Part shown: piece after piece, positions 7,903-56,034 of the stretch
Layout of the letters: the number at the start of each line of letters is the position of its first letter
Position numbering within the stretch: the stretch's first letter is position 1
Source: Branchiostoma floridae
Taxonomy: Eukaryota; Chordata; Leptocardii; Amphioxiformes; Branchiostomatidae
Length of the DNA: 64,000 nt
NCBI RefSeq assembly: GCF_000003815.2
Contig: NC_049991.1
Location: 4,016,437-4,080,436, forward strand
Direction of reading: 5' to 3'
Position numbers and translations under genes: made by a program
The notes under the pieces: generated by a model
Databases searched by the model: none
The model's input: the letters and a program-made list of their open reading frames with translations, nothing else
What the model was told of the DNA's origin: nothing

Positions 7903-10900
7903 ATGTATTCTACAGTCGTCCTCTGCCTTTTGGCTGTTAGCGGTGCACTGGCCATGCCTGTTACGGACTCACTCGTAGCAACCGTCGTCATGACAACAGG
8001 TAACGCTAGGTCACCTCTGGGTAACCTATATCTTTTAAAACAAGGTATTAAGGGATCTATAGGTATTAAGTCGACGAGCGGTAAACGGTGCAATATTGTC
8101 TAGATATTGCGTGTATGTATATATGTGTGTGTGTGTGTGTGTGCGTGTGTGTGTGTGTGTGTGTGTTTGTGTTCATGTGCGTGTGTGTTTATTGCGTGTG
8201 TGTGTGTGTGTGTACACTATGCGTGTGTGTGTTTGTGACTGTGGTAAATCCGTGCGTGTTTGTGTGTTGTCTGTGTGTATAGGTGTGTAAGTTTGTGTGT
8301 GTATGTTTATGCCCGTGTGGTTGGTGTACCCTATGAAGAATTTGTGGGGGTGGGGGGTACACTGGCCCAAAGGGGCGGGGGGTTTTGGTTTTTNNNNNNN
8401 NNNNNNNNNNNNNNNNNNNNNNNNNNNNNNNNNNNNNNNNNNNNNNNNNNNNNNNNNNNNNNNNNNNNNNNNNNNNNNNNNNNNNNNNNNNNNNNNNNNN
8501 NNNNNNNNNNNNNNNNNNNNNNNNNNNNNNNNNNNNNNNNNNNNNNNNNNNNNNNNNNNNNNNNNNNNNNNNNNNNNNNNNNNNNNNNNNNNNNNNNNNN
8601 NNNNNNNNNNNNNNNNNNNNNNNNNNNNNNNNNNNNNNNNNNNNNNNNNNNNNNNNNNNNNNNNNNNNNNNNNNNNNNNNNNNNNNNNNNNNNNNNNNNN
8701 NNNNNNNNNNNNNNNNNNNNNNNNNNNNNNNNNNNNNNNNNNNNNNNNNNNNNNNNNNNNNNNNNNNNNNNNNNNNNNNNNNNNNNNNNNNNNNNNNNNN
8801 NNNNNNNNNNNNNNNNNNNNNNNNNNNNNNNNNNNNNNNNNNNNNNNNNNNNNNNNNNNNNNNNNNNNNNNNNNNNNNNNNNNNNNNNNNNNNNNNNNNN
8901 NNNNNNNNNNNNNNNNNNNNNNNNNNNNNNNNNNNNNNTAGCGTATACTGGGTGCTCTACTTTTGTGTGTATGTGTATACTGTACAGTAAATGGATTTTC
9001 TCCTTGTATACCTACTGAAAACACGTATACTTAGCCTAAACCATAGTCCATGACCAAAGCAGCAAGGAGCACTTACCTAAATGCATCAAAACTAACCTTT
9101 TACAGCCGTGAGCAGGCCCTGCGACCCAGGCTACATCTGCTTCCCGAACTCAACCGTGCCCAACCCGACCGATGGTATCATGGGATACATCTGTCCTGTG
9201 GGGCACTTCTGTCCCACTGGTGCCCTGGAGGAAATTCCCTGTCCGATCGGTTAGTTATCTAGTTAATGAGTGATAGTAAAATTTAACGTATGGTTTGCTC
9301 GACAGTGCACGGTGACTGAACCAGAATTTGTTTTTCTAATGAAGACAAAAAAGTGTGAAGAAAAAGTTTTCGCGAAATGATTCAGTTTATCTATCAGAAT
9401 AACGAAGTTTGAAAATAATGCAGGTGCATCAAAGTGACTGAATGTATCATACATTGTACTTTGTGTAGGTTCTGTTCAAATAGCAGATAGCATGTGATAT
9501 AATGAAGAGGTGGTGTTGGTTTGGGTCCCCTGGCAGCTTGCTCTGGAACTGCAGGAGCATTTTTGTCAAAATCTCCCAAGGAGCATAACGGAACATAGGA
9601 ACGATGGATTTCCATGATATTCAGTATGCAGGTACCGTTAGCAAAGATGTCCACAATGAAGTTCAGATTATGCAAATTGGGACTTAATTTGCATGCTTAA
9701 TGAGGAAAATCTTGAATTTATTTATTCTTACAGGATCCTACAGCAACTTAATTGGCCTGGCTGATGCATCTGAATGTGTGCAGTGCCCAGCCGGTTACTA
9801 CTGTAGTTTGCCCGGACTGCAGGCCCCACTCGGACTTTGCGATCCCGGCTACTTCTGCATACCTGGGTCCCAGTCGCCCACGCCCGTCGATGGCACATGC
9901 CCAGAAGGATGCTACTGCCCAACAGGTAATGATTTGCATCTGTGTTGATGAATAACATTATGAGTAAAGACTGAATTTCGTAAAGCAAAAACGAGTAAAC
10001 AATTAAACAGAGACGGGGGGCGACACAGGTTATCTGACACTTCTGTCAAACAGGTAATGCTTGTTACGAAACTGCATCTGTGTTGATAAATGACATTATG
10101 AGTAAAGACTGAACTTTAAAAAATGTGACGATTGAACAGAGACGGGGGGCGACACAGGTTATCTGACACAACTGCCCAACAGGTTGGCACGAAATAGGAT
10201 GTTTGACACCGAAATTGATGAATATCTAAATGCCATCATTCTGATCTGGAAACAAAACTGGAATATAACTTGTAATGATAACTAAACGCTACTTATACTT
10301 AAAGGGTCTGCCGCACCTATACCGTGCCCGGTTGGTACAATGAACCCAGTCAGCCACGGTTCAAGTGTGTCTGAATGTGTGCTATGTCCGGCTGGTCAGT
10401 ACTGTAGTGGGGCCGGATTGCAGACCCCAACTGGACACTGCAGTGCCGGCTACTTCTGCATACCTGGTTCCCAGTCACCCACACCTGTCGATGGCACATG
10501 CCCAGAAGGGCACTACTGTCCAACAGGTAATGCTTTGCATCTGTGTTGATAAATGACATTATGAGTAAAGACCGAACTTTAAAAAGCAAAAAAAAAAAAA
10601 AAAAAAAAATGATTGAACAGAGACAGGGGACGAAACAGGTTATATGACACTACTGCCCAACAGGCAATGCTTTGCAAGAAACTTCATTTGTGTTATAATA
10701 CATATAAGTGACATTATGAGTAAAGACTGAACTTTACAAAACCAACAGTGTGAAAAATTGAACAGATCAAGACGGGGGTGACACAGGTTATCTGACAAAA
10801 CCTGCCCAACAGGTAATGTTTGGCACGAAACTGCATCTGCGTTAATAAATGACAGTATGAGTAACGATTGAACTTTACAAAACCAATAGGGTGAACGATT

Positions 10901-14814: not shown

Positions 14815-17800
14815 TCAAAGTGAGGTGTCAATATTTCCATTGTGGTAAGACATTGTCTTCTCATCACTCGACTTTGTGACGAGCTTCTTTGTGGTTCCGA
14901 GTCGCCTGCCTACAATACACACTAACCCGGACAAAACCATAACCAAGGCGATGATAATGCCAACCAACGCATACTGGGTCCCTTGGAGCTGCTGCAGTAG
15001 CGCTGCAATTCCGCCAGGTGGCGTGGTACTCCTATGGCTGTCAACAGTCGTCGCAGGTTCTTTCGTTGGCGTCATGGCGGGTGCTGCCTTGTGACTGTGC
15101 GAAATCATGGCAGGGATGACTTGACCCAAGAAGAACCTCTGTCTAGGATACAAGTCGGACGTGACACTGCTGAGCGACATGCCGCCGAGTTGCAGATATT
15201 GGCGGCCAAGTTCGTCGTAGGCTGGCCATGTCACCGGTACGGCGTTTGGGCGATTGGGGTTTCTGGAAAAAGCAAAGCTCAGTCATACAGTAGACACATA
15301 CCGGGCACTTTTATATTGTGATTCCAATGTATGACTGAAGGAGACACATGTGAAACCTAATGGAAAACATAGCTAGTAATATCCATGACCAATTGCTCCA
15401 CCCACAGAAACACATTAGGACCTGTCACCCTGCTGTCGGCTATGCTCTCCTCCTAGGAGTGATTGATTACCCCGAAACTCATGACAAACACATTGGAATC
15501 ACAGTCTCCAATTGGCGATAAGGATATATATCCTCCAAAGCAAACATAACAAACCCTCTGACTAAGGAAAAAATTGAAGATAAACACAGAAGATATCTGT
15601 TCTGCTGGGTATGTTTCTTTAGTGTTACACCTGAGTTTCGACTATTGAACTGAGCTTTGAGAGGAACCTTTATCGCAAACTTACCCAGTCTTCATGAAAT
15701 TCGAAAAGTATACCATCATCCGGGTACTGAGCTCCACCTCCACTGACGTCACGGTCTTTCCGTTATACTCCGGCCCAAACAGGAAGTACTTCTCGTCCCC
15801 ATGTGCCGCCTGGATGTAGGAGGGTCTGCTGGAGAAGGACGGCCGGGGGGCGAACTGGAAAATGTCGTCACGTGATTATGACGTAGTCTAGTGTCCGCCA
15901 TGTTGGTTGGTTGAATATATCTTGTTTTATCCTCTTTTTTTTTTCTTTTGCACTACAGTATAGAGTTTTTTATATCCCGCGGTAAAAGTCGCGGGATTTT
16001 GCTGGATAGCTTTCGATAATATTGCGCGGGATACCTTGCGTGATTTTGCGTGATACCTCTCAGGATTTCGTGAAATATCTCGCCATATATTGCATGATAT
16101 CCTACAGCTCTCCTGAAAAATAGTTACCGTGAGCTATATATCCTGCAAAGTCTCTAGACAGACACCACATTATGCTGCGGGACTTTGGTGCATATCCCGA
16201 AGCATGTACTGTGTTGTTCTTTCTTAACGACTTTGCATATGCTAGACAATGAATAGTCGTTTACGCTACTAAATGACCGATCGCCATCTTGGATTTACAA
16301 ACTCAAGCAACATGGCGAATGCATCTGACGTCACAAGTTCTGACGTAACATACAGGTGCCCTGTAAACTCAGATTCGATATTGAGTAGGGTGCATCTGAC
16401 TCACGTAGTAGAAGTAGGTGCCCCCGTGGTAGCGGGAGTAGTCCGCGGCGTCCTCAATAGGCGGGACGGCGAACCGCCAGTCACCGTAGAACCTGGCGGC
16501 GCGCTCGGCGTAAGAAATGCCGTGGTTACCGTGACCGTCCGAACCGTACTCGCTAACCACGGTCTGGGTCACCTAGTGAAAAAAGTTCAACTTAAAACCA
16601 TGAATATTGACAAGTCACTGGAGATTTATCGAATAAAAATGTTCACCAAAATCAAGCGAATAAACTGCCTAATTTGGGATTGGTCACATTCGTAATACAA
16701 CAGTCGTACGATTGCCGTACGACAGCAAATCGAGGGTAGTCTTTGCAATGGATAGTCGTGTCGTACGAAGAATTCAACCGTTTTTTTTACTGCAAATGCT
16801 GTTTTAGCTCCTTGTTGGTTGACGGTATAGGACGAATGTAACAGCAGCGTTAGTTTGCAATATGATTGTTGTAAGAACTACAAACAAATGAAGTACGTTT
16901 TGAGTACATTCAGGGCGTTTTTTGTAATACATTTGAAACCTGCATAAAATAAAAGAGACTTTCAGTTTTTACCCGTGCAGCATTCTCTTCGAAAATTCTT
17001 AGTTTGTCAGCTGCCACGGCTTCGAAGTCCGCTTGAGTGTGAATGGAGTTGAGTGTGGAGGTGCCCAACACCGAACCCTCACTGCTGACAATACCCAACA
17101 TGTAGTCCCGCCTCTCAAAATTTCCTTCGAGGAGCAGCTCTTGAGGAGTCTTAGGAAGGAAGACGCCGTCTACGGTTGGCACAAACCTGAGACATCCGGA
17201 CAACAGGAGAAGGTAAATGTGGTATCTCACTGCGCTTGGGGAACCGGTGCGGCACTGCGGGGTTCCAAAGATACTCATCCAATTTCAGAGAACGAATTTT
17301 CTTACGTTTTGTGTATTTTGTCGTCTTTTAAGTCATACTTTTACGTATTTCGCAATATCTAAATTATAAAACATCCGAGAAAATAACAAATTGTGCCGCA
17401 GTGAGCGAACCCCGCAGTGTCGCAAGTGCAGTGAGATACCACCTTAAGATATGACGTCACATGACGTCATTTGACCCGCAATGGGTGCTGAACTGGTAAT
17501 CACTGGTAATCTGTGACCGCGTTGGCCAATAGGAGCAAAGTATCGCCAGGTCACCCGAATCCTCACGAGGTTTGGCAAAATGACTTACAACAACTTATTA
17601 CGTGTACGTGTAATAACAACTTCACTGATTTAACACGTGCAACCTTAGATGAGAGAATTGTCTATTTTGTCCATTGCTTTGTGAACGACAAATGCACACT
17701 GGTATAATCTTACTCAGTTGTAAGTTAAAGAATAAAGGTACGTGAGTACAATGAGGTACATGTAGTCCGTCGATTAAAGTAAGACATATAGGTAACAAGA

Positions 17801-19118: not shown

Positions 19119-19316
19119 GTTATACCCCCCTCACATTATGCCCGATTCCATCGGACGACGAGTCTGCGATCTCTAAATTACGAGGAGGCATGACCCTGAC
19201 GGGAAGGAGGGAACTCTGTCATTTCATCCACGGCATCAGGGTCATGCCTCCTCTTAATTAAGAGCTCGCAGACTCGTCGTCCGATCGATTTTCGCCTAAT
19301 GTGAGGGGGGTATAAC
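19119..19316. repeat. Large imperfect palindrome with GTTATACCCCCC ends
   Basis: The left arm (GTTATACCCCCCTCACATTA..., then GACGACGAGTCTGCGA, GGAGGCATGACC) is mirrored almost along its whole length by the right arm ending TGAGGGGGGTATAAC, leaving a loop of about 30 bp. A third, partial right arm lies at 19463-19515. Probably a fold-back MITE. Confidence 0.75.
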
Positions 19317-20147: not shown

Positions 20148-20238
20148 AATCGTTCTGATTCAGCAAGTAAACAGTTCAGCGACCTTTATTGCTTTGACTA
20201 GTCATTAGCTACTTCATGAGATTAGTCTGAATATCAGG

Positions 20239-20423
20239 AAGCTTGATTCTGCGCAACTCTTGTACAATAACAACCCCTAACACATCAGTCGCAGTGCTTC
20301 CCAAGGACGTATATGAATAACCATAACACTAAGCTTGATTCTGCGCAACTCTTTTACAATAACAACCCCTAATACGTCAACCGCAGTGCTTCCCAAGGAC
20401 GTAGATACATAAACATAACACTA
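20239..20423. repeat. Two tandem 92-bp units upstream of the LRR gene
   Basis: Two copies, starting at AAGCTTGATTCTGCGCAACT (20239 and 20331), differ at only a few positions and end near CATAACACT. They lie about 0.25-0.45 kb upstream of the LRR start codon, in its likely promoter region. Confidence 0.85.
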
Positions 20424-20681
20424 AGCGAAGTAATAAGTCTGGTTAATAAACGCAGTGTACGTACTGACGCCGCCAACAGCCGGCGGTGCAAAGCTTGTTA
20501 CGTACCGACATTCACCACAAGGAGAGAAGAGCTGAGCAAACCGACAGCTCGTCACTGAGGCTTACCGACCTGTGGGCTAAGTACACAAACTACAGGTAAG
20601 TGAGAAATGGTCTCTCGGATGAAAGGCTTAGATCCAACCGACAGAATGTACCAAAGAGGCGGTGCGAAGGAGAGCGCAGCC

Positions 20682-23600
20682 ATGTTGTTCTTGCTTCTCT
20701 TGGTCTGTGGTGATTCAAATGGCCAGAGCTTGCCTGGTTGTAAGACCGCTGAATGGTTAGAGTGTGTGCCTGAAACAAGGAAGCCGGGAGGTTCGGTCAT
20801 GGTTACGCCTAGCACACATGCATGTGTCAAGTGTGAGATCCCAAACATGGGTATTGCCTCTGGAAGTCCCTTTTCTTGTCTTGTTGGGGCCAAACTGGCT
20901 GTGGCAATAAGAGGATACCCATTCTATGTCCTATCGACACAGAGCCTGACACCACTCAACAAGCAATCTCTGGTTCGCGCCTTGGCTTTGGTAGATGCCG
21001 AGGTCACTGATGTGGAGAACAGCACATTCGCTGGGTTTACCCATCTTCTCGATTTGTCACTAGATTCCAACAGGTTGACACATGTCAAGCAGGCCTGGTT
21101 CACTGGCTTGGAGAATCTCTTGTCGCTGATTTTGTCCAACAACCACATCGAGCAGATAGAGGCAGGGAGCTTTGCAGACCTAGATCGTCTGCAATTCTTG
21201 GATCTAGAGAACAACATGTTACAGGTTGTAGACCCTGTCTGGCTCTGGGGACTGAAAAGTACCAAATTCATGGACCTGGGGTTGAATAAGATCAATCGCA
21301 TTTTCCCTGGGTCCTTCCGGCACCTGCAGCTTTCCTGGTTGAACCTGAGGGGCAGCGATCTGTCGTGTTTGGATGGAGATGTGTTTCGGGGACAGTCTTC
21401 GCTGGCGAGGCTCCATATCAGCAGTGGCATGTTGTCCTCTGTGTATGTTGAAAAGCCACATGGAATGATGTGGAGCCTATGTCGGTTTGCCAATATGAGG
21501 AAAGGGTCAGCCACGTTGGTTGTTGAGGTACCCAGGTTCATCTTCTGTACCAGACACAATGGGGCAACTCGTAGGCTTTTGTTTGGGTGGATGTTTGATT
21601 CATCAAACAATATGCCTGGTAACATCGAAATGGGACGTGTCAACCCTGGCAAATCATGCGGTGCTTTGGATCGTTCTCTGAGCACTATCTCCGTCCAGGC
21701 ACCTGTAGTTGTCTTGGCTACTGACGACTCTCTGGCTGCCAAACTGGGCCTCAACACACTTGAGCAGTGCAGGCAGGTTTGGGAATACAGTAGAGGTATT
21801 GCTATAACAATGGGCCCGGTGGGAAGTCCGATCTTCCGACTGGTTTCCTTTGCCACAGGGAATACAGCTTTTGAAGGTGTTGCCATGTCATTTGTCCAGA
21901 CACAAGACACACTTACCACCACTGAGTCTGTATACAGACAAACGCACACCACCCATGCAAACGCCACCAATGACTATACAAAGAACATCACCTGCATTCT
22001 GCTCACCAAAGATGAACACACCGAGTTGTTCTTCACCGTTCCCCCGGTCCAGTACCAGACACACACAACCACTGACCACTCCAGCAGCCTGTTACACAAC
22101 ACCAAATACACACCATATTCAGAACAGGTAGATAACTCTACACTGCAGGTGAGTACCACACCTGGACCAGAGGTGCCTCCCGCAAAAGATCATGTTCTCA
22201 TCTCAGTTGTTGTCTCGGCAGTGGTCAGTCTGGTCGTGTTGTCCCTTGCAGTGTTGGCATGGAAGTTGCGGTTCTCAAGGTCAAACGTTGAAGGTGGGAG
22301 GGCCAGCGACGATGCACACATTTGGACAATCCCACCTGGGGTTGCCTTCCCCGGCTTGCTGAGGTCGGCTTCTCTACCTGCATGCTCAAACAAGATGGCG
22401 TCGGATGACGTAGCCTCTTGTAGGTCATTGCCAGCTGTACTGGATTCCATCGAGCCTACTTACAGCGAGATCCCAGATAACATAGCCACTGCTCAGAGGC
22501 CTCTGCCTGGTCTCCCCCACACATACTGGGAGATTCCAGATGACGTCATCTCCGGTGTGATTCGGTCAGCTTCTCTCCCTGCAGTAACATGCACACGCGG
22601 TGGGGACGCCCCAGATGACACGGCATCTTGCAAGTCATTGCCGGCTATTCTCCTGTCCATTGAGCCCACCTACACTGAGATCCCAGATCATGTAGCTGTT
22701 GCACAGCGCCCCCTGCCTGCTCTCCCGCACACAGCATGGGGGAGCCCAGATCATGACGCCGCTGCACAGCGCCCTCTGTCTGTCATGAGACATACTTACA
22801 GTGTGATCCCCGATGATGGGGAGAGTGGTCCCATGCCTTTCTACACTGATGCTGCAGAGCTCTCCCTCCATGTCGTCAGCAACAGGAGACCGCACCGACG
22901 GGCCTTCCGGGATAACAGCACTGGGGAGAGCGGTCACATACCTCTCTACGCTAATGCTGCAGAGAATTCCCTCCATGTAGTGAGAAGCAGACAGCACCGA
23001 CGGGCCTTCCGGGATAACACCACTGTTTCAACCGGACACCGATCCGGAAGATCCTTTGGCAAATATGGGTCGGCTGACCAGAGCAGAGCAGAGCTTAACA
23101 GCTTCTATAGACAGGGCCCCGAGGTCGAAGGCATAAGAGCCCGTAGACGGATGAGAACAGCTTTGGTATCCCAGCCTGCTGACCAAGGGTTGAGGACCTA
23201 CGTCAATGTCACAGATGCTATCCTGTCCAGTGGTCAAAATGTCACTGAGGCTCATATCGCCTTCCTCACATCGCCTGGTGCTTACGGTCCTTGGGAGATA
23301 TCGGAAGATGGAGCACGTATCACACCACGGCGTGCGTCCCTCCCTCTTGTCACACTGCCTAACACCTACTGGCCATGGGAGATTCCGGGCGATGGAAACG
23401 GTATGAGACAAAGGGGCGCGTCCCTCCCCCATGTCACACTGCCTAACACCTACTGGCCATGGCAGATACCCGTGCAGGAAACACGTAACACACCACGGCG
23501 TGCGTCCCTTCCCCTTGTCACACTGCCTAACACCTACTGGCCTTGGGAGATACCCGTGGAGGGAACACGTAACACACCACGGCGTGCGTCCCTCCCCCTT

Positions 23601-24089
23601 GTCACACTGCCTAACACCTACTGGCCTTGGGAGATACCCGTGGAGGGAACACGTAACACACCACTGCGTGCGTCTCTCCCCCATGTCACACTGCCTAACA
23701 CCTACTGGCCATGGGAGCTACCCGTGCAGGGAATACGTAACACACCACGGCGCGCGTCCCTCCCCCGTGTCACACTGCCTAACACCTACTGGCCATGGGA
23801 GATACCCGTGCAGGGAAGACGTAACACACCACGGCGTGCGTCCCTCCCCCGTGTCACACTGCCTAACACCTACTGGCCATGGGAGGTACCCGTGCAGGAA
23901 ACACGTATCACACCACGACGTGCGTCCTTCCCCCATGTCACACTGCCTAACACCTACTGGCCATGGGAGGTACCCGTGCAGGGAACACGTAACACACCAC
24001 GGCGCGCGTCCCTCCCCCGTGTCACACTGCCTAACACCTATTGGCCATGGGAGATACCCGATCATGGAACACCTTTTTCCGAGGGGTAA
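20682..24089 (+). CDS. Leucine-rich-repeat transmembrane protein with repetitive cytoplasmic tail
   Basis: One uninterrupted frame runs to TAA at 24087-24089. I prefer the ATG at 20682 (context GCAGCCATGT), which starts directly with a hydrophobic signal peptide (LFLLLLVCG); an in-frame ATG at 20607 would place 25 polar residues before it. Numbering from 20607: a Cys-rich N-cap at 41-91, about five or six LRRs at 125-275 (for example LLSLILSNNHIEQIEAGSF), a Cys-containing cap, a Thr/Ser-rich stalk to 525, a membrane helix at 530-553, and a tail of about 600 residues. The tail has repeated TYSEIPD-type motifs, two RSASLP motifs, and nine copies of a 28-residue unit (908-1155). It is probably a cell-surface receptor or adhesion protein; no TIR, death or kinase domain is seen. 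A strong donor (CTACAG|GTAAGT at 20595) just upstream suggests an untranslated 5' exon in some transcripts. The gene is antisense inside intron 4 of carboxylesterase A. Confidence 0.85.
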   Translation: MLFLLLLVCGDSNGQSLPGCKTAEWLECVPETRKPGGSVMVTPSTHACVKCEIPNMGIASGSPFSCLVGAKLAVAIRGYPFYVLSTQSLTPLNKQSLVRALALVDAEVTDVENSTFAGFTHLLDLSLDSNRLTHVKQAWFTGLENLLSLILSNNHIEQIEAGSFADLDRLQFLDLENNMLQVVDPVWLWGLKSTKFMDLGLNKINRIFPGSFRHLQLSWLNLRGSDLSCLDGDVFRGQSSLARLHISSGMLSSVYVEKPHGMMWSLCRFANMRKGSATLVVEVPRFIFCTRHNGATRRLLFGWMFDSSNNMPGNIEMGRVNPGKSCGALDRSLSTISVQAPVVVLATDDSLAAKLGLNTLEQCRQVWEYSRGIAITMGPVGSPIFRLVSFATGNTAFEGVAMSFVQTQDTLTTTESVYRQTHTTHANATNDYTKNITCILLTKDEHTELFFTVPPVQYQTHTTTDHSSSLLHNTKYTPYSEQVDNSTLQVSTTPGPEVPPAKDHVLISVVVSAVVSLVVLSLAVLAWKLRFSRSNVEGGRASDDAHIWTIPPGVAFPGLLRSASLPACSNKMASDDVASCRSLPAVLDSIEPTYSEIPDNIATAQRPLPGLPHTYWEIPDDVISGVIRSASLPAVTCTRGGDAPDDTASCKSLPAILLSIEPTYTEIPDHVAVAQRPLPALPHTAWGSPDHDAAAQRPLSVMRHTYSVIPDDGESGPMPFYTDAAELSLHVVSNRRPHRRAFRDNSTGESGHIPLYANAAENSLHVVRSRQHRRAFRDNTTVSTGHRSGRSFGKYGSADQSRAELNSFYRQGPEVEGIRARRRMRTALVSQPADQGLRTYVNVTDAILSSGQNVTEAHIAFLTSPGAYGPWEISEDGARITPRRASLPLVTLPNTYWPWEIPGDGNGMRQRGASLPHVTLPNTYWPWQIPVQETRNTPRRASLPLVTLPNTYWPWEIPVEGTRNTPRRASLPLVTLPNTYWPWEIPVEGTRNTPLRASLPHVTLPNTYWPWELPVQGIRNTPRRASLPRVTLPNTYWPWEIPVQGRRNTPRRASLPRVTLPNTYWPWEVPVQETRITPRRASFPHVTLPNTYWPWEVPVQGTRNTPRRASLPRVTLPNTYWPWEIPDHGTPFSEG
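23320..24076 (+). repeat. Nine in-frame 84-bp coding repeats
   Basis: The unit encodes RRASLP-x-VTLPNTYWPWEIP-VxGTRNTP with small changes. The period is exactly 84 bp (CACACTGCCTAACACC at 23351, 23435, and so on). Near-identity at DNA level indicates recent expansion or gene conversion. Because 84 is divisible by three, the other frames on both strands stay open too. Confidence 0.95.
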
Positions 24090-25574
24090 CCTATATCCGT
24101 TTTTAATTACCGTTCGTAACGTCAAATATTGACACGTACATTTGAATCCGTTTGTGGTTTGGCACACTATTGACAGGTTATCCTAAAAGACCTAGAAATT
24201 CTGTTTCAAGATGTCTACTTTTGCCACGTCAATATTGACCAATTCCAAAATCTAATAAGTCGCAAACCTTTATTCAACCTTTCTTGATCCTTTACAAAAC
24301 ATTTTGTTGAATCATGACCGATAGTAACCTTTACTTTTTCACCTCTGTTAAATTGAAGGTACTGATTTTGTGTGTCTGCCTATATTTCCGGAAATTTTGA
24401 CTAGCAATAATATAAAAAAACACTGTATGGAAAGTGATAATATTTGTTATGTGAGGAGTGTGGTGGCTCCTGGTGGCTTCCTTTGGAACAACAGCAGAAC
24501 TTCTGTGTTTTTTTTTTACTTCTTGTCCCTTACATTGTATGGTCTTTGCATGGAAGGGAGGGGGGTGGAGGGGTGGGTTTGGGCAGATACCCTTGATATA
24601 CAACATTGTATCAGCTACTGGGGACCTCTTGCAGTTCGTTCTGAAACTGCAGAGCGTTTTAATCAAAACTTTTCAAAGAGGATAAGTAAGAAACAATGAC
24701 TGATTTTTTTTATTTGGCGCATGCGGGTAATTCTAAAGAAGACGGAAACAATAAAATTCAAATTGTTAAAGCTTGGAATAACTCTGCATAATCAATGAGG
24801 TAATATATAATGATTTACCACGTCAATATTGACATCAATCCATAATCTTAGATATAGAAAGCGTAAGACAGTGATCTTTAACCATTCTGGAAAGCACGAC
24901 TTGGCCTGTTTTTCACTTTAGAAAATGATATTTAATACTATTATGAAAATCATATTTTTTAAATTTTTTTTCTAAACTTACATTTCATTCTTACAAAAAT
25001 TCTGTTGCACCTACAGTCGTCATATAACACGATTTTGTTGTACAAGAAAAGAAATCCTCTCCTATCTTTTACACTAAAATATTAAGTACTGCAGCAGTGT
25101 TTGGGCTGTAAAACTTTAAGTATAGACTATATGATTCAATACATAACGATGGCAGTGGCCATTCTGTTAAAAGCTCATCATGTAACATTTTTTCCTCGAA
25201 AATGAAAATATTCTGGAGAACAAAACGTTTATGTGAATGACATAAATAACCATTTTTCAGCATATTTGCTTCGTTATGTCCTAATTCTAAAGTTTTTGAA
25301 CTGCACAAAACAAGTTACACAAGGTCTGATAATTTTCTGAAACCAACTCAAACTAGACCATTCTGTTCTTTATAACAGCACACTAGTTTGAAGCATCAAA
25401 GTTTGTATGGTGTAATGATATTACCCCCCCCCCCAAAAAAAAAATTGGTCTGCAACTGGTCTGGTCTATAGTGTTCATCTAACTTACTATGAAAGAAATG
25501 GTAGGAAAATTTACTTTTTATTGTCCCCAACCTTACATAATGGACTTGTTAACTTCATACATGTAACGTTACCT

Positions 25575-26545
25575 TTAACCCTCAAACCACCGTAGCTTTT
25601 TTGTGACGTAGATTACCGTATGGGGTCAAAACTGACCCCAAAACGTTTTGTACAAATACAGTTTTTTGTGTGACTCTTTGTGTGATTTGTATATATGTAT
25701 AGTTTTATTAATCTATGTGGGACAGTCTGACATGATTAGGTGAGAATACTTCTAGCTCATTATCATAATTTATGCAAAAGATCATGAGGACCACATTTTG
25801 CACCAATGCTATTCAGACCGGGAAGGAGGTTTTTGATGCCTGTACCAACTTCAATGCCGTATAGCGCCTGAATGGCTTATGCTAGGGCCACCAAACTTGG
25901 TAACTTTTTAGAAAATGTTGAAAGCAAACATTTTCAGTGAACAAAGTATGTTCATTATTTTTCATGTTGCCATGGCAACGGAATTCTGACAGACATATTT
26001 ATTACGAAATTTTCTAATTTTGTATTAAACATTTAAGTTTTAAGGTTTTCTTGGCAAATAACAGTTGTTTATCACATCTTATGAAATTCAACGTAAATTT
26101 CATGACTCAATATTCATAATTTATGCTAATTTGATGACGTCATCAGCCAAAATCCAAGATGGCGCCCGAGATTACCTAGATGACGTCATAATGTCGTCAT
26201 ATAACATGATGATGGCACAAAAGTTGTTACAATAATTTTGACTTACATGTACATCATTATCTGAAAATTTCGTGATCCTACGATAAGTAGTTTAGGTGTG
26301 GGTCGCAAAAGTTTGTTTAAAAAAATGCTGGGGTCAGTTTTGACCCCACTGGACCATGCATAAACTTTCTAGGATAACTTAATCAACAATGAGCCAATCT
26401 CGGTAAAAACGTATAAGAAGTTATAGGACATATATACAAACAAACTCATGGAAGGAAATTAGTTTTCGACCAGAAATGCCATAATGGCACACATCGATAT
26501 ACGCCTGGGGTCAGTTTTGACCCCATACGGTGGTTTGAGGGTTAA
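25575..26545. mobile_element. piggyBac-like non-autonomous transposon (type 2)
   Basis: TTAA at 25575-25578 and 26542-26545 flank inverted ends CCCTCAAACCACCGTA and TACGGTGGTTTGAGGG. Subterminal repeats GGGGTCAAAACTGACCCC and GGGGTCAGTTTTGACCCC add further symmetry. The 971-bp interior has no transposase frame. An internal CTATTCAGACCGGG at 25809-25822 matches the end of the type-1 element at 1059-1547, so a truncated copy may be nested. Confidence 0.85.
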
Positions 26546-32123: not shown

Positions 32124-35915
<3,792 letters not shown>

Positions 35916-35970
35916 CTTTATTTTCAGTGTCGTTCAATAGTATAAATTTGCCCCGTGACATCTACACTGC

Positions 35971-35980: not shown

Positions 35981-36723
35981 GATGTTTATTGACGTAGTAA
36001 ATTCAGCAAGCCCATGTGTGTATATAACTTCGCCGTATTGAATGCCATTATAAACATGTACAAAACAAACAACGAAAATGGTCGTGTATTTCAACTATAT
36101 TTATATGCTACAAATCCTTGAAAGGAGAACGTTTTCTGTGGCTGGACAAAACTTAATTGAACGTATAAAAACATTACATTAATTATGAGTATAATAAACG
36201 TTTTCAAATTAAGTATAGCTTTCAAAGAAGTGGAAATTAAAAAGAGTCAACAATATGCCACATCGGGTCAATTTGACATGGTCTTATGTAAAGGTCTTGC
36301 CGAAGCTAGTTTGTTCTTCAACTATAGTTTTAGCACACACGTGTGGCAGTTCGGTTAACCGTCATGTTTGCATTTGCGGGTAACCATATTTAAGTAAGTT
36401 AAGGGCCCATAATAAGGCCTTTTAGATGTTGCAGGGTCAATGGGTCTAGGACACAGTATTGGGAGGCGGGGCCCATCTCTTCTTTCACCACCTTTACCCC
36501 CCCCCCCCCCCCCAACGAAGCCAGGTAGCTATTACTACATGTACCTTGTTGGAATGAGGAAACTGTTGTTGTTTCCCTTTCTACTTTGTATTTTGTACCA
36601 AAGTAAATCAAAAGGCAATGATATAGCAGAGATATAGTTTCAAATCATGCCTATTTGCTCGACATCTGCCAATCCATCATGAAGAAAATGCCCGGGTACT
36701 GTTTGCTTGCTAAATCAAGAGGG

Positions 36724-36731
36724 TGACGTCA
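36724..36731 (+). promoter_or_regulatory. CRE-like palindrome upstream of carboxylesterase B
   Basis: TGACGTCA, the full cAMP-response-element palindrome, lies 84 bp before the ATG at 36815. No TATA box is evident for this gene. TGACGTCA occurs often in the window's transposons, so the site may be fortuitous. Confidence 0.35.
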
Positions 36732-36814
36732 CTTGTTTACAAAGACCAGGTGTTGACCTTTGGAAAATACACAGTGTGTACATATCTTGGTTCGACGTAC
36801 TGCAGTTTGCAACT

Positions 36815-39263
36815 ATGGCGAGAATCATTCAAGTTTTCCTTCTTTTCGGCTCACTTTCGGTAATCTTCGGCATCTGTCGGGCTGATCTCGTCAAGGTGAC
36901 GACCTCTGGGCTCATACGAGGGTTTATGAACACTCACAACGGCGTGGATGTCGAGACGTACCTGGGTGTACCATACGCCACGCCCCCTACAGGCCCCTTG
37001 CGACTCCGTAACCCGGTACCCCACCCGGAGTGGGACGGAATCCGGAATGCTACGGCAAATGGCCCAGACTGTCCGGACGCACGGCATTCCGTTTGGGACG
37101 AGGACTGCCTCTACGCGAACGTCTACGTTCCCCGGAAAACTCCGGACGACATCTTGCCCGTCTTGGTGTACATACACGGGGGAGGGTTTCAACACAAGGC
37201 CACTACTGCCGACCCTACGGCCTTCGCTGCAACTGGTAACGTCATAGTCGTCGCTATAAACTATCGTACCAACGTTTTCGGGTTCTTCAGCACCGGTGAC
37301 TATGTCGCTCCGGGAAATTTCGGACTCATGGACCAGCGTGCAGCGATTGTGTGGACGAAAGAAAACATCGCGGCTTTCGGTGGCAACCCGCATGCCATTA
37401 CCATCTACGGGCGATCTGCTGGAGGCGAGTCGGTGGGATTCCAGCAGTTATCCCCGATGAACAACGGGCTGTATCTACGGGCTATCTCCGGTAGCGCCGT
37501 GGCTATAACGCCAGGGATCCTCACCAAACGCCCGCAGGAAACCTCGACGTATCTGGTCGAGCTTCTGAATTGTACAGCGGATAACAAACTTGATGAGGTG
37601 GAATGCCTCCGCCATATTAGCGCCCAGGACCTTCTAACTTACGCTCTTCAAACCCCGCCAGCGTCGGACTCCATCTACACATGGCTACCTGTTGTTGACG
37701 GTACCTTTCTTACGGACACTCCGGAGAAACTCCTCCGCTCCGGAGCACTGGAGAACAGGGACTACCTCATGGGTAACGTCAACAGCGAGGGCTCCGTGGC
37801 GGGAGCTGCAACATATCGAGCCGTTACATCAGTTGAGGCCTTCGTTTCCACTGCTAGAGCTAAACTCTTTACAACATTTTCGAACAATTTCGAAAATGTT
37901 GTTCAGGCTACCAAGTACAGGTATTGTTATGACATTGCTAACAACGTCAGCCCGAATTTACCAGCTAGGTATGTAGATTTCTACGGAGAGTGGCGTTTTG
38001 TAGCATCAACTGTTCTTACGGCAGACATCTATGCCGAACTTGGACACAACACGTATTTCTTCTACTTCACGCGGCGGCCATCTTACTCCACAAGGGACGA
38101 TTTCATTGGCTGCGCACACGGAGAAGAGAAGTTCTTCCTCTTCGGCCTGACCAGAGTCGTCACTGATGACGAAATGGAACTGAGCACAAATATGATGACG
38201 TACTTCGCAAACTTCGTACGATCAGGGTACGTTTGCATATTTCTGAGCCAAGTATTATGTAGGGGCTTTAACCTACCTTTTCCATAACGATTTACCCCCT
38301 ACAATAAACTAGCCGTTGTTCAGGGTTCAGGGTTTATTGTGTATGTATGTTTTCACTTCTAACTAATGATGATCTTTTTGATGGATTCGTATGAATTTTG
38401 GTTTGTTGGTAGCTATTGAAGTCCCGACAAAACGCGGCGTTCCCTAGCGGTAATTGGAGGTAGTGCAGTATTACAGGCCTATACCCCTTTATGAAAGTAG
38501 TGGGGTATAATCTATTGGCACATCACCATTGGCTTCAGTTTTCTCTAGTATCCTTTCGTAGCACCTTTCAGCTCAAATTTGTTCATATAAACAAGTTTTG
38601 ACAGTTTTGACTAACATGGGAAAGCTTGAACGCTTGCCTGGTCGTTCTATTAAACCGAAGAAAAATATCGCGAAAAAAAATTCAAGAAAAAGAAAGGTTT
38701 TATGTAGCGCAACGCACATCTAAAGTTTGCCCATGATAGTAGAACTCTGGCATTGAGAAATTCATCTGAATATCTCAAACATTTTAAGGAGGATTGAAAT
38801 CTTCAATATTTTCCTGTTATCACACAGGGACCCGAACCATCCCGATCCGGTGCCCGTCGAGTGGCCGCGCTACAACACCAGCGATCGGCCGTACCTCGAG
38901 CTTGACGTCAACATGACGTCACAAAACGTCAAGACGAACCTCCTACCATCACAGATGTTCTTCTGGAACGAAGTCATCCCGTCAATCAACTCAGCAGGCA
39001 GCCCGCCGGATGTGGAGGAAGATTCGACTACATCGGCTCCTCTCCCGGACATGACGTCATCTCCAGAAGAAGCCGAAGATGGACAGTCGGGCACGAATGT
39101 TGCCGAGTTGCTCCGAAGCACACAGATCGTGATGTACGCCATGTTGGGAGTGTCGATTGCTCTGCTGTTGCTGCTTATTATCTTAGCGTTTGTTTACCAA
39201 CAGGGTCTAGGGAAGGTAAACAAAAATATTAAGACCGCAATGAACCAAAACGCAATGTTATAA
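36815..39263 (+). CDS. Carboxylesterase B (cholinesterase-like), intron-poor
   Basis: Two coding exons, 36815-38226 and 38828-39263 (TAA), give 615 aa. The frame is open upstream to 36707, but the ATG at 36815 starts directly at the signal peptide (RIIQVFLLFGSLSVIFGI). The oxyanion hole is HGGGF at 121-125. The triad is Ser201 (GRSAGG), Glu325 (NSEGS) and His435 (CAHGEEKFFLFG). A Glu/Thr/Pro-rich stalk follows, then a transmembrane helix at about 573-594 and a short basic tail, so it should be a surface-anchored hydrolase. Carboxylesterase A is colinear and has eight introns; here only the last is kept, at the same codon (G|DPN against G|NPN) and the same phase 2. The genes are divergent with start codons 0.9 kb apart. 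Substrate unknown. Confidence 0.93.
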
Positions 39264-44565: not shown

Positions 44566-47500
44566 CGTCAACGAAGTACTTGCGATACGGAGGCACCGCT
44601 GTCCTAACTCGTTTCATTTTCCGGAGTTGTGCAACCTCATCCGTGCCGTTGTAGCACGCGTACTTAGGTTGTCCCGATGTCGTCCATTGTGTGTGCACCT
44701 CATGCTCATAAACGTCACCATGCTTGGTGACGAGCCCTCCTGCCGACAGGATGTGGTTGGGGGTAGTCCTCTCAAAGGCTTCTGTTCCGAGCCTCATTGA
44801 GACCTGTGTCATCATTAAAACAGATTCAGAATCCACGATGGTAAACTTTGGCCCCAAAATTTCCAGACTTCTATGTGGGGATTTAGAACACGAATCATCT
44901 TCCATCGAATAGAACGCAGGCGTGATCGAACAGAACGGGCGTTCTATTTGGGGTCATCCGAGGTCACCCGCAGGTTGTTACAGTAAACACGCAGCAAACA
45001 CCCTCATTTTTCCGGGTGCCGTGCGTCAGAAGAAAAACAAACATTTTCACAAATATAAACCATTATTTGGCAAGCTTAGTTTTGCTGCCGCTTAGTTTGG
45101 AACATGTGACATGTAACAAAGCTGCTGGCGTCATTATTGGTGACCTTGAATGTTACAACACTTGTTTACGGCGGTATCAATTACTCTATGTCACTATCAG
45201 TGCGACTCGACATAGGACCAAACATGGTATTTAAATCGCTTGCAAAACGCATGCAAATCAACTCTTTCAGGACTTATGTTGTCGACAACTAATATCTCCA
45301 GCTTTGTGTCTTAGGGATTTTTGGAACATGCAGGCAATTTTGAATTACGAGTCTTTGAGTGTGAAAACTTGAAAAAATGACGATTTTTCGACCTTAAATT
45401 GGCTATAAAAATAGTTTTAAGTAGAAGCTGAAAAATCCCTAAGACAGAAAATTTGATCTTAATATCATTACCAATATGAAATAAAAGATTTGGATTTTCA
45501 GTCGAATTTAGGACCAATCTAATTATGGTATTTGCTTTTTTGGCCCACCGAACACCCTTTCTAAATCAACCAACTATGCACATTTCAGAAGACATTGAGA
45601 CAAAACTGTGAAGCACACGTACACGGTAAGACTTAACGTGTACACACTGCCAGTTTTCATTTAATATCGACGAGGCACGTGCGAGAGGTTGTTTTTCAAA
45701 CTATCACGATATTTATATTTCAGCCATACATAGTATGGTGAAATATATTGTATTCGTAATGTTTCTTTCTTCTTTCTTCTTTCTTTCTCCTGTCAAATCT
45801 TCAAAGTGATTCATCTCCGCCGTTCCTGGACCGAATGACCTGAAATTTGGCACAGGGGTAGAATGGGCCAATACCTTGATCCTTTTTTCTCAGTTTTTTC
45901 ATATCTGCCTCTAAAATGATTTTATTGAGATTTTTTGGTCAATTTTAGACCAAAACTATATATTTTTGCCCCTGTACCCTGGTATTACAATCAAATGAGC
46001 TGAAATTTGACAGAGATGTGCCTTAATAATGCCCCCATATAAATTCGATAACACTTTTGGTGTACAGTACAACAAAATGCTTATTTTTGCGATTTTTTGA
46101 CCAATTTTTGACAAAAAAAGGACACTTTTGGCCCCTGTACCCTGGTATTACAACCAAATGAGCTGAAATTTGACAGAGATGTGCCTTGATAATCTCTTCA
46201 TATAAATTCAATAACACTTTTGGTGTACAGTACAACAAAATGCTTATTTTTGCGATTTTTGGACCAATTTTTGACCAAAAAAGGACACTTTTGGCTCCTG
46301 TACCTTGGTATTGCAACCGAATGAGCTGAAATTTGACACAGATGTGCCTTGATAATTCCTTCATATAAATTCAATAACACTTTTGGTGTACAGTGCAACA
46401 AAATGCTTATTTTTGCGATTTTTGGCCAATTTTTGACCAAAAAAGGACACTTTTGGCTCCTGTACCCTGGTATTACAATTAAATGACCTGAAATTTGGTA
46501 TAGATAGGCATTAGATACTTGGTAACAAGATTCAAGTAAAATTTTTGACATAAACAACTTTAAAATGATTAATTTTGGCACTTTTCTGAGGGGAAATTTG
46601 TTTTCTTTTGGCCTCCTGACGTGACCTTCCGTGACCCCGCACAGAGCCAAACCTGTGCGCGTCAGCCGGAGAGTTAATTGAATCAAAGACCTAGCCAATC
46701 AGCGAAGAGGAGGCCAAAGGCTAATTAATATTCATAAGCGGGGCCTCATGATCCCGTATATAGCAGTGTTCCCGCCAGGGGGAGCGAAGCCCGCCTAAGG
46801 CTCTCGCATTTTAGACTATTCAGAAGGCTTTATATTGTATCAGTTCTTAGGGGCATATCTATGATAATCGCAGCAGTCACTTAACTTCTCTTCAGGAGTT
46901 TAGCGTAACACTATTTCAGGTCAAACCGTCAAAGGCAACTAAAAACAAACTTTAACGTTACTGAGTTCAACAGTACTTATAACTTGTTATCCGAAGTTGA
47001 AACGCTAGCGATGGTATTTTCGCTGCGCTGTTAGCTCCGTGCGACTGTTGTTGACGGTCTTATAACGGTATATTTTGCACCCCTGTACCCTGGTATGAGT
47101 AACATTTGGTATAGATAGGCATAAGATAGTTGGTAAAATGATCCAAGTAAAATTTTTGGCATAAAGTACTGTAAAAGGCTTAATTACAGCACTTTTTTTT
47201 AGGGGAAATTGGTTTTCTTTCGTTCTCCATGCCATGACCTTTCGGACGTTCACCCCACAGAGCCGACATCTGCACCTGCTTCTAGCCGGCAGGAAGAGTT
47301 AATTCAATTAATGGTTCAGCCAATCAGCGAAGAGGAAAGTGAAGGCTAATTAATATTCATAAGCGGGACCACACAATACGTTAACTTGAAGACTCAGGCC
47401 GTACAGACTTCTCGCCAGGATTTTGTCAAAGCGTCGGACAGGGGTCCGGGGGCCGCCGAATGTCCCTGGCGGGGTCCAGGGGCAGGGCCACTGTGTGTGT

Positions 47501-54038: not shown

Positions 54039-54279
54039 CTTAAGAAAGAGATACGGGAAAAGGTTGGTGGATGACATTCTGGCCTACAGTTTGTGTATCT
54101 ATGGTGTTTAACAAAACAATCCAATGTGCATCTACAACAGTTACTGCAATTGGACTTTGAGGACGTAAAGATCTACGTGACAAATGTACAGGCATCGATG
54201 TGCGAGCTTTACGTCGAATACAAGTCATTGCCAGAGTCTCAATATAAGTGTGCTTATACTTGGTGTGGTTGATACTCAC

Positions 54280-55791
54280 CTGTTTTTGCTTCTTCGGGAT
54301 CGGGCTTTTTGCCGGTTTTGACGTAACTTGCAACTAAATCATATCCTGCCTTCCTTGCCGCATCAGCCACTGTCGTACCCTCCCCATTCACAACATTCCT
54401 GTTCACGTTGCAGCGCTCGATCAAGAACTCTACCGCGGGAAAATCCCCGTTGGCAGCAGCCAGCGTCAGCGGGTAGTCGCCGTTTCTGTTAGGGTGACTC
54501 ATGGGAATGTTGCTCTTGTAGAGAAGACGAAGCGCCTTAAAATCATGACACTTAACGGCCAGAGTGGCGGCGGTTTCCTCTTCCTTGCAAAATTTGGCTT
54601 CCTTCAAGCTGGCTCCAGAAATCTTAAGCAACTTGACAAGTGTGTCCGTGTCTCCAGCCTTAAGACAATCCTCAAAGCGAAGGTGAACCATGTGTTTAAG
54701 ATACTCGACCATGTCCTCATTCCCCAGCTTTTGTGCTTGCTGGATTATAGTGGGCTTCCCTGCGTTGCTGTGGATAACTGGGGCTCCTCTGCTCAGAAGG
54801 TAGTGCACCAGGCGTAGGTTTCCTGTCCTGACAGCAAGGCTGACTGGGGTATCACCGAAGCAATTTGCAGCGGTAAAATCTGCACCTTCAGCGTGAAGCC
54901 TCTTCACTCCTTCCAAATCCACAGCACGAATTGCTGACCTCAAATGCTGATCCTTGATCTTGGACTTGAGAAATTTCTCCATGTCAATCATGTTGTAACG
55001 GGAAGCCACTTCGACCAATGAGGTACCATTTTGATCACGCCCACCGGGATCGGATCCATTCTCTACTAACCACTTTGCAATGTTACTGTTCCGTTCGTGC
55101 AAGGCTAGGGACAAATTAGGCTCTTTGCTACCCGATATCTCCACCAATCCTCCAAGATGTTTGAATTTCTTACACATGTCTAAGTCGTTACTGGTAACCG
55201 CCTGATTGATTTGCAGGCTGTAATGACCTATCATGTACTTCACAACATTCTTGTGTCCCTTTGCTTTGGCCAGGGTAAGGATGGTTTGACCATTACTATC
55301 CTTGATAAACAAAGCGCATATGTTGTCTTTGCTGTCTTGGTCGACCTGGGTAAGGTACTCGATTATGTCTGGCTTGTCCTGGGACCGGGCAGCAAGCCCT
55401 ACAAGACCATGAGGGTCTTCCTGGTTACACTGATTAATGGTTCCACCACCCTCGTGGCATTTTTGCACGTCTTCTCGTGTCCCACTCTTAACAGCTCTAC
55501 GCAACTCCTCGTCTTCCAAACATTTATCTCTCCTCAGCGATTTATTGTAATGCTGATGACTACCGCCATGGAGACAAGAGTCGCAGTTTTTGTTGTGTTC
55601 TGTAAGCCATGGTCTTTCGTCAACGGATACTTCGGCTCGAGAAGGGTAATCAGTTTCCGTGTGTATATCAGGATCTTTGTTTCCTTCCTCGTTGTATTTA
55701 CCGCACACCTTGTCATACTCAAGGTTCTCCAAGATAGTTGAGATTTGATGGTCATCCTTGAGAACCCTGCGTGCGATTGTACGTGCAGTAT
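54280..55791 (-). CDS. Ankyrin/coiled-coil protein, large exon 12
   Basis: A 1,512-bp exon, phase 1 at both ends, between acceptor TTATTCAG and donor ACAG|GTGAGT. Its first 100 residues are a linker that includes a Cys/His cluster (HNKNCDSCLHGGSHQHYNK). The rest is a run of about eleven ankyrin-type repeats, many degenerate; the clearest are GDTPVSLAVRTGNLRLVHYL and NGDYPLTLAAANGDFPAVEF. The start DTARTIARRV continues the ankyrin helix begun in exon 11. That one exon holds so many repeats while upstream ones hold one each suggests local intron loss or repeat growth. Ankyrin repeats bind proteins; the partner is unknown. Confidence 0.9.
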
Positions 55792-56034
55792 CTGAATAAT
55801 GATGGAACAACGACAGATATAATTATCATCACAGAGCCATATGATGTTTACCAACCAGAAAACCAGCTCCATTTTACTATTGCCATATGTCATAATTATT
55901 AAAATTTACTAAATTTAATTACATTCTTAATTACATCACGCACTGTACTGTTACCATTACATGGGAGGGCGCTGTTTAATATGTAAGGAGCTTATATCTA
56001 CCTATCTATTTATCTACCTATCTGTCTATCTATC

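Follow-up and report, generated by a model that had tools for sequence, protein, structure and literature searches.

Conserved tyrosine, SH3-like and 14-3-3-type motifs and a tandem array in the tails of a large family of Branchiostoma floridae leucine-rich repeat receptors

The closest described precedent for the receptor gene considered here is BbLcLRR of Branchiostoma belcheri, a lancelet single-pass leucine-rich repeat (LRR) receptor whose tail is bound by amphioxus Lck and phosphorylated by it at three tyrosines, one of them within the sequence HDYSEV; the receptor recruited SHIP1 and, to a lesser degree, SHP1/2, and, in Jurkat cells, it had a dampening effect on T-cell signalling (PMC8211107). 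A second LRR receptor of B. belcheri, FrLRR, was found in a Grb2 complex (PMC10199209), and B. floridae itself has a large repertoire of VLR (variable lymphocyte receptor)-like LRR-only proteins, with a reported 948 LRR-only gene models (PMC4731796). Here, we describe a gene with a repetitive cytoplasmic tail in a 64,000-nucleotide stretch of the B. floridae genome (hereafter ‘the window’; C13:4016437-4080436), which belongs to a large family of single-pass LRR receptors without introns and with like tails, in which motifs resembling ligands of SH2 and SH3 domains and of 14-3-3 proteins are enriched and constrained.

The likeness to BbLcLRR extends to the tail, where HDYSEV resembles the HTYSEIPD motif of the window receptor; compared by description only, BbLcLRR differs in its length of 699 residues, its WSC domain and its three phosphorylated tail tyrosines, and a tandem array is not among the features described in the accessible part of that account (PMC8211107). 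The window gene has no WSC domain among its Pfam matches at E<=0.01. FrLRR is described as being without a cytoplasmic tail, whereas the window family carries a Grb2-type YVNV motif (PMC10199209); the VLR-like proteins are defined by LRR domains alone (PMC4731796), and genes of the present family may sit unnamed among the 948 models. Tails with tyrosine motifs are likewise found in ITIM and ITAM receptors (immunoreceptor tyrosine-based inhibitory and activation motifs), but the ITIM pattern is not enriched in the window family. An earlier, sequence-only reading of this DNA knew of no described receptor with such a tail; in keeping with this, the open-access literature on lancelet LRR receptors and on the tail strings yielded, among the matches listed, no lancelet paper describing by title either the family or the array; six tail strings did occur in 14 papers, none of which concerned lancelets to judge by title.

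The receptor gene and its relatives in the genome

The sequence-only reading had placed the repeats in a receptor tail, and this is borne out (Table 1). The gene is a single uninterrupted frame, within an open frame of 1161 codons (20604-24089, +) that holds a hydrophobic leader recognised by eye (MLFLLLLVCGDSNGQS, common to the paralogs, from which the start ATG was picked, also by eye), the LRRs, one transmembrane (TM) segment and a cytoplasmic tail of 608 residues with all nine repeat units; the TM segment and tail are assigned by hydropathy only. The tail gave no Pfam match at E<=1, and hence none to the TIR domain that a Toll-like receptor would have. The conserved post-LRR region (208 residues) retains invariant Cys and Trp across five aligned loci, the least similar at 35% identity to the window sequence, and neither Pfam nor a profile search against PDB chains gave a match to it at E<=1; it is possibly an undescribed domain. 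Predicted by AlphaFold from the window sequence alone, the ectodomain had a mean predicted local distance difference test score of 29.9, and the model was not used.

The existence of many such loci, overlooked by the sequence-only reading, became apparent on searching the 513,431,437-base assembly (431 contigs), and the counts from the array, proximal-tail and ectodomain searches are all lower bounds. The 757-bp array DNA has at least 74 matching places (40 of 86 candidates scored), giving at least 40 array places on 14 contigs, and a degenerate DNA pattern encoding PNTYWPWE finds 335 exact matches in the genome and its reversed control 0, a recurrence that exceeds chance. For the proximal tail, at least 188 matches (116 of 131 candidates scored) merge into at least 81 loci on 18 contigs, a figure built from the matches listed with extra pieces of the same loci omitted; 64 of these have open frames of at least 800 residues, one gap artefact having been removed. 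The ectodomain has at least 87 matches (85 of 1576 candidates scored). Amongst 20 array loci that were fetched, 13 have open frames of 1000-1315 residues that take in either the array or the units at its start, the rest being shorter, broken, gapped or cut by a contig; LRR_8 was found in all seven loci chosen for divergence, which also carry subsets of the proximal motifs. A 5559-residue open frame at C262 was considered as a giant array and rejected: the 9.9 kb read at this place contain runs of N, which appear as X in translation, and the long frame of that stretch yielded no countable unit.

Parts of the roughly 500 bp upstream of the gene are matched in 17 of 27 fetched loci, in some cases only in the stretch adjoining the start codon, and this sharing therefore favours DNA duplication inclusive of the 5′ flank over retrocopying. 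The flank also contains a 92-bp tandem duplication (20239-20426, 90% matches), and parts of it are common to distant paralogs.

Conserved motifs and the tandem array of the tail

The juxtamembrane, or proximal, half of the tail is conserved in 15 near-full paralog rows, with a median dN/dS (ratio of nonsynonymous to synonymous substitution rates) of 0.39, as compared to 0.44 for the LRRs, 0.48 for the post-LRR region, 0.75 for the stalk and 0.58 for the TM segment. Within it, pN/pS (the corresponding ratio of proportions of differences) falls to 0.25 for RSASLP, 0.23 for C[RK]SLP, 0.26 for WTIPPGVAFPGL, 0.31 for both TYxxIPD and RPLPxLP, and 0.39 for YVNV, against 0.59 for the other tail columns; pooled, the eleven motif segments give 0.293 versus 0.514 for random contiguous sets, with 0 of 5000 as low, a comparison that controls for size and contiguity only. 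Apart from the tyrosines of Table 1, the columns of Y745, Y819 and Y833 are each kept in 15/15 rows and that of Y730 in 13/14, where letters are present.

Enrichment of the same motifs was assessed in the pre-array tails of 22 rows (L010, L014, L015, L018, L019, L023 and a short L027 frame being omitted, and the L032 stretch including out-of-frame array) against 300 shuffles. Yx[ED][ILV] occurs 61 times and in every locus (shuffle mean 4.1, maximum 12), RP[LP]PxxP 36 times in 20 loci (mean 0.1, maximum 2), RSxSxP 32 times in 18 loci (mean 0.5, maximum 3) and YxN 22 times (mean 7.0, maximum 16). ITIM-type patterns, with T allowed at -2, are not enriched (nine, in 5 of the 22 loci; shuffle mean 13.0), and the pattern [SILV]xYxx[ILV] is absent from the window tail. 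An ITAM comprises two Yxx[LI] motifs 6-12 residues apart; the nearest proximal pair in the window, Y618 and Y639, is separated by 21.

These motifs resemble known ligand classes, and the tyrosine, SH3-like and Grb2-like ones were also missed by the sequence-only reading. The Src SH3 domain has a canonical class I ligand in VSLARRPLPPLP, which reduces the Km for a tyrosine close by (PMC4509517); the consensus SH2 targets are pYEEI for Lck and pYE[ENY][IML] for Src, with pYxN types in the case of Grb2 (PMC2271153), and both RSxpSxP and RxxpSxP bind 14-3-3 (PMC3006207). In the window, RPLPGLPHTYWEIP sets a class I SH3-like ligand beside YxEI, the arrangement expected of Src-family docking. Two RSASLP copies do lie near the membrane, as had been noted, and, judged by pattern, it is these proximal RSxSxP sequences and not the RRASLP of the array that are the stronger candidate 14-3-3-type sites.

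The array itself closes the tail with nine 28-residue units, all in frame (Tandem Repeats Finder, TRF: 84-bp period, 9.1 copies, 23310-24072, score 1193). Its units, earlier described as nine identical sites, proved to be alike and not identical: Ser, the +2 Pro and VTLPNTYWPW are each present in 9/9, RxxSxP in 8/9, with L at -3 in unit 5, RGASLP in unit 2 and RRASFP in unit 8. In total, the tail carries ten RxxSxP, the sequence pattern of a 14-3-3 client. With a period of 84 bp, each unit adds a whole number of codons, and the array DNA can accordingly be read without stops in a second forward frame (23407-24132, +) and in reverse frames (23028-23717, - and 23718-24182, -); some paralog arrays (e.g. 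L017 and L032) pass into an alternative frame.

Conservation of the units was measured in 154 of them, accepted where at least 12 positions matched a consensus drawn up by eye, from 16 of 21 loci (the window, L009, L011-L013, L015-L017, L019-L022, L024-L026 and L028; L010, L014, L018, L023 and L027, with broken or fragmentary frames, were omitted, and L030-L036 were added later). The tyrosine is present in 152, TYWPW in 141, RxxSxP in 110 and RRxS in 98; the Ser (as S/T, 132) and the +2 Pro (136) are thus kept in other copies, as the sequence-only reading would have it. Between loci, pN/pS is 0.22 for the tyrosine, 0.26 for VTLPNTYWPW, 0.36 for the +2 Pro, 0.43 for RRASLP, 0.55 for the whole unit, 0.61 for the Ser codon, 0.84 for the GEGT linker and 2.15 for RNTP; within loci, it is 0.66 for the whole unit and 0.34 for the core. 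Bootstrapping over loci puts retention at 0.968 (0.939-0.993) for NTY, 0.916 (0.856-0.974) for WPW and 0.714 (0.650-0.784) for RxxSxP, and on these figures the tyrosine is the best-kept feature of the array, with the serine secondary. Units differ at 0.183 of bases within a locus and at 0.244 between loci, and this closer likeness within loci indicates concerted evolution.

As to origin, the proximal module AQRPLPGLPHTYWEIPDD can be aligned to the unit ASLPLVTLPNTYWPWEIPGE if a single gap of two residues is allowed, an alignment equalled by 1 of 20000 shuffles, the test strings being by-eye consensus sequences; the second module (CRSLPAVLDSIEPTYSEIPDD) aligns much more weakly (364 of 20000). 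The array unit thus seems to be an RPLPxLP-HTYWEIPD module that gained two residues and was expanded, and at L031, where tandem HTYWEIPDHLAAAQRPLPGLPNTYWEIPDHLAAAQRPLP adjoins RRASLPLTIPNTYWPWEI units, the arrangement has the appearance of an intermediate state. Unit counts range from 0 (at L034) to 15 across 22 loci, and the ectodomain tree has arrays, of 2-15 units, in each of its three deep clades.

Features of the window

Table 1. Positions within the window of the receptor gene, its domains and its tail motifs
Feature	Positions	Strand	Basis
5′ flank common to paralogs, promoter/5′ untranslated region candidate	20166..20681	+	blastn matches in 17/27 fetched loci
Receptor gene, single uninterrupted frame, likely start ATG to stop	20682..24089	+	Open reading frame
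Best LRR_8 stretch of the LRR domain	21042..21221	+	Pfam E=1.9e-26, residues 145-204 of P0001, 3 stretches
Conserved post-LRR extracellular region, without known domain	21420..22043	+	Aligned in 5 loci
Transmembrane segment	22194..22262	+	Hydropathy and sequence
RSASLP, proximal copy 1, strict 14-3-3 mode-1 pattern	22362..22379	+	Ser column 14/15
TYSEIPD (Y618), Src/Lck-SH2-like	22458..22478	+	Tyr 15/15
RPLPGLP-HTYWEIPD, class I SH3-like ligand then Y639	22497..22541	+	Motif pN/pS 0.31; Tyr 12/13
RSASLP, proximal copy 2	22563..22580	+	Ser column 13/13
TYTEIPD (Y688)	22668..22688	+	Tyr 13/13
RPLPALP, second class I SH3-like ligand	22707..22727	+	Sequence reading, motif alignment
YVNV (Y864), Grb2-SH2-like	23199..23210	+	Tyr 10/12; pN/pS 0.39
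Degenerate unit 0 (GAYGPWEIS), a decayed tenth unit preceding the nine	23232..23315	+	Sequence reading
Nine 84-bp units, RNTPRRASLPxVTLPNTYWPWEIPxxxx	23316..24071	+	TRF and unit alignment

Elsewhere in the window, carboxylesterase-family genes or exons were recognised by Pfam (36683-38287, + and 16910-17284, -) and by eye (35511-35933, -), with separate exons near them (38757-39263, + and 14815-15282, -) that encode a hydrophobic, TM-like segment and a short tail, and a long ankyrin-repeat open frame lies at 54254-55822 (-; Ank_2 E=1.2e-31). A TTAA-bounded element at 25575-26545, with perfect terminal inverted repeats of 20 nt and a further 26 nt just inside, resembles a piggyBac-type non-autonomous transposon. 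There is, in addition, a near-perfect palindrome at 19119-19316 (81-nt arms with 89% complementarity and a 36-nt spacer), a 163-bp tandem repeat of 3.6 copies at 45913-46497 and an assembly gap at 8394-8938 (545 N); Rfam and tRNA scans of the window gave no matches.

A possible docking tail and its alternatives

Beyond the anatomy, family size, constraint and motif enrichment, which are observed directly, we tentatively favour, with a little less than even confidence, a multivalent docking tail for tyrosine kinases and adaptors, in which the NTY(WPW) core would be the main selected element of the array and the basophilic serine a second layer. The class I SH3-like ligands (RPLPxLP) that the proximal half pairs with nearby YxEI tyrosines could recruit a Src/Lck-type kinase and then retain it through its SH2 domain, whilst the YVNV and the two RSxSxP sites would add Grb2-type and basophilic/14-3-3-type docking. 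The C-terminal array, as a putative tandem expansion of an LP-(N/H)TYW-EIP module with two inserted residues, would repeat a derived tyrosine cassette many times over, with copy number setting valency; RRASLP, a good basophilic-kinase/14-3-3 consensus, may form a second, less constrained serine layer. For the proximal tail, the most likely initial partner seems to be a Src-family kinase, because of the SH3/SH2 motif matches and because amphioxus Lck phosphorylates an LRR receptor tail. The docking proteins FAK and p130Cas similarly pair a Src SH3 ligand with an adjoining Src-type SH2 tyrosine; both are cytosolic and are not known to be related in sequence to the window receptor. The partners named here are those that the motifs suggest, and phosphorylation, disorder of the tail, an immune role and the sign of any signal are likewise what we infer.

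The sequence-only reading had instead made RRASLP central, with PKA-type phosphorylation turning the array into a multivalent 14-3-3 platform. Its multivalency appears sound, nine tandem units lying in one tail, as does its chemistry: RxxSxP, a 14-3-3 mode-1 pattern (PMC3006207), recurs in 8/9 window and 110/154 family units and RRxS in 98/154, and proximal RSxSxP is strongly kept (pN/pS 0.25). What lacks support is the serine as the focus, since its codon, at pN/pS 0.61, is no more constrained than the unit as a whole (0.55) and less so than the tyrosine (0.22), and RxxSxP is retained less faithfully than NTY, such that we consider this account rather improbable. The TYWPWE core might alternatively be a constitutive, non-phosphorylated docking peptide for an aromatic-binding partner such as a trafficking or scaffold protein, an idea that the 96-97% conservation of each of W, P and W, and the disruption of SH2-like spacing by the inserted pair, would both suit; yet L035 has replaced WPW in 9/11 units whilst keeping NTY in 11/11, and we think this explanation unlikely. 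Equally improbable to the serine-centred account, in our estimation, is that the array is mostly a slippage-prone spacer of little site-specific function, with signalling left to the proximal tail: copy number does vary from none to 15, the linker and RNTP block are poorly constrained and some arrays run out of frame, but the core shows position-specific constraint, with an excess of third-position differences (0.073, 0.091, 0.196), and arrays persist in all three deep clades.

The docking reading that we favour has its own difficulties. The inserted WP/PW places E and I at +4/+5, and the array tyrosines consequently no longer fit pYxEI; arrays are partly out of frame at four of the loci read (L009, L017, L027 and L032); RSxSxP is absent from 4, RP[LP]PxxP from 2 and YxN from 6 of the 22 loci; the motif columns were chosen by their match to the window sequence; and concerted evolution weakens any test that takes the units as independent.

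A bolder and more doubtful extension of the docking reading is that, within an intronless LRR superfamily of about a hundred members, a Src-docking module (RPLPxLP-HTYxEIPD) was copied, retuned through insertion of two residues to an NTYWPWE cassette whose reader is not known from vertebrates, and multiplied up to 15-fold, with array length tuning the signal strength of each receptor; if true, the lancelet lineage would have a tyrosine signalling code to itself, playing a part like that of the ITAM/ITIM families in vertebrates. Studies of how vertebrate immune receptors arose commonly take amphioxus as their reference, and signalling by its numerous LRR proteins is poorly understood; the 81 or more loci, with their conserved tyrosine, SH3, Grb2 and 14-3-3-type tail, are a concrete candidate for such signalling, and the natural series of tails with 0-15 copies offers a means of probing the effect of valency upon it.

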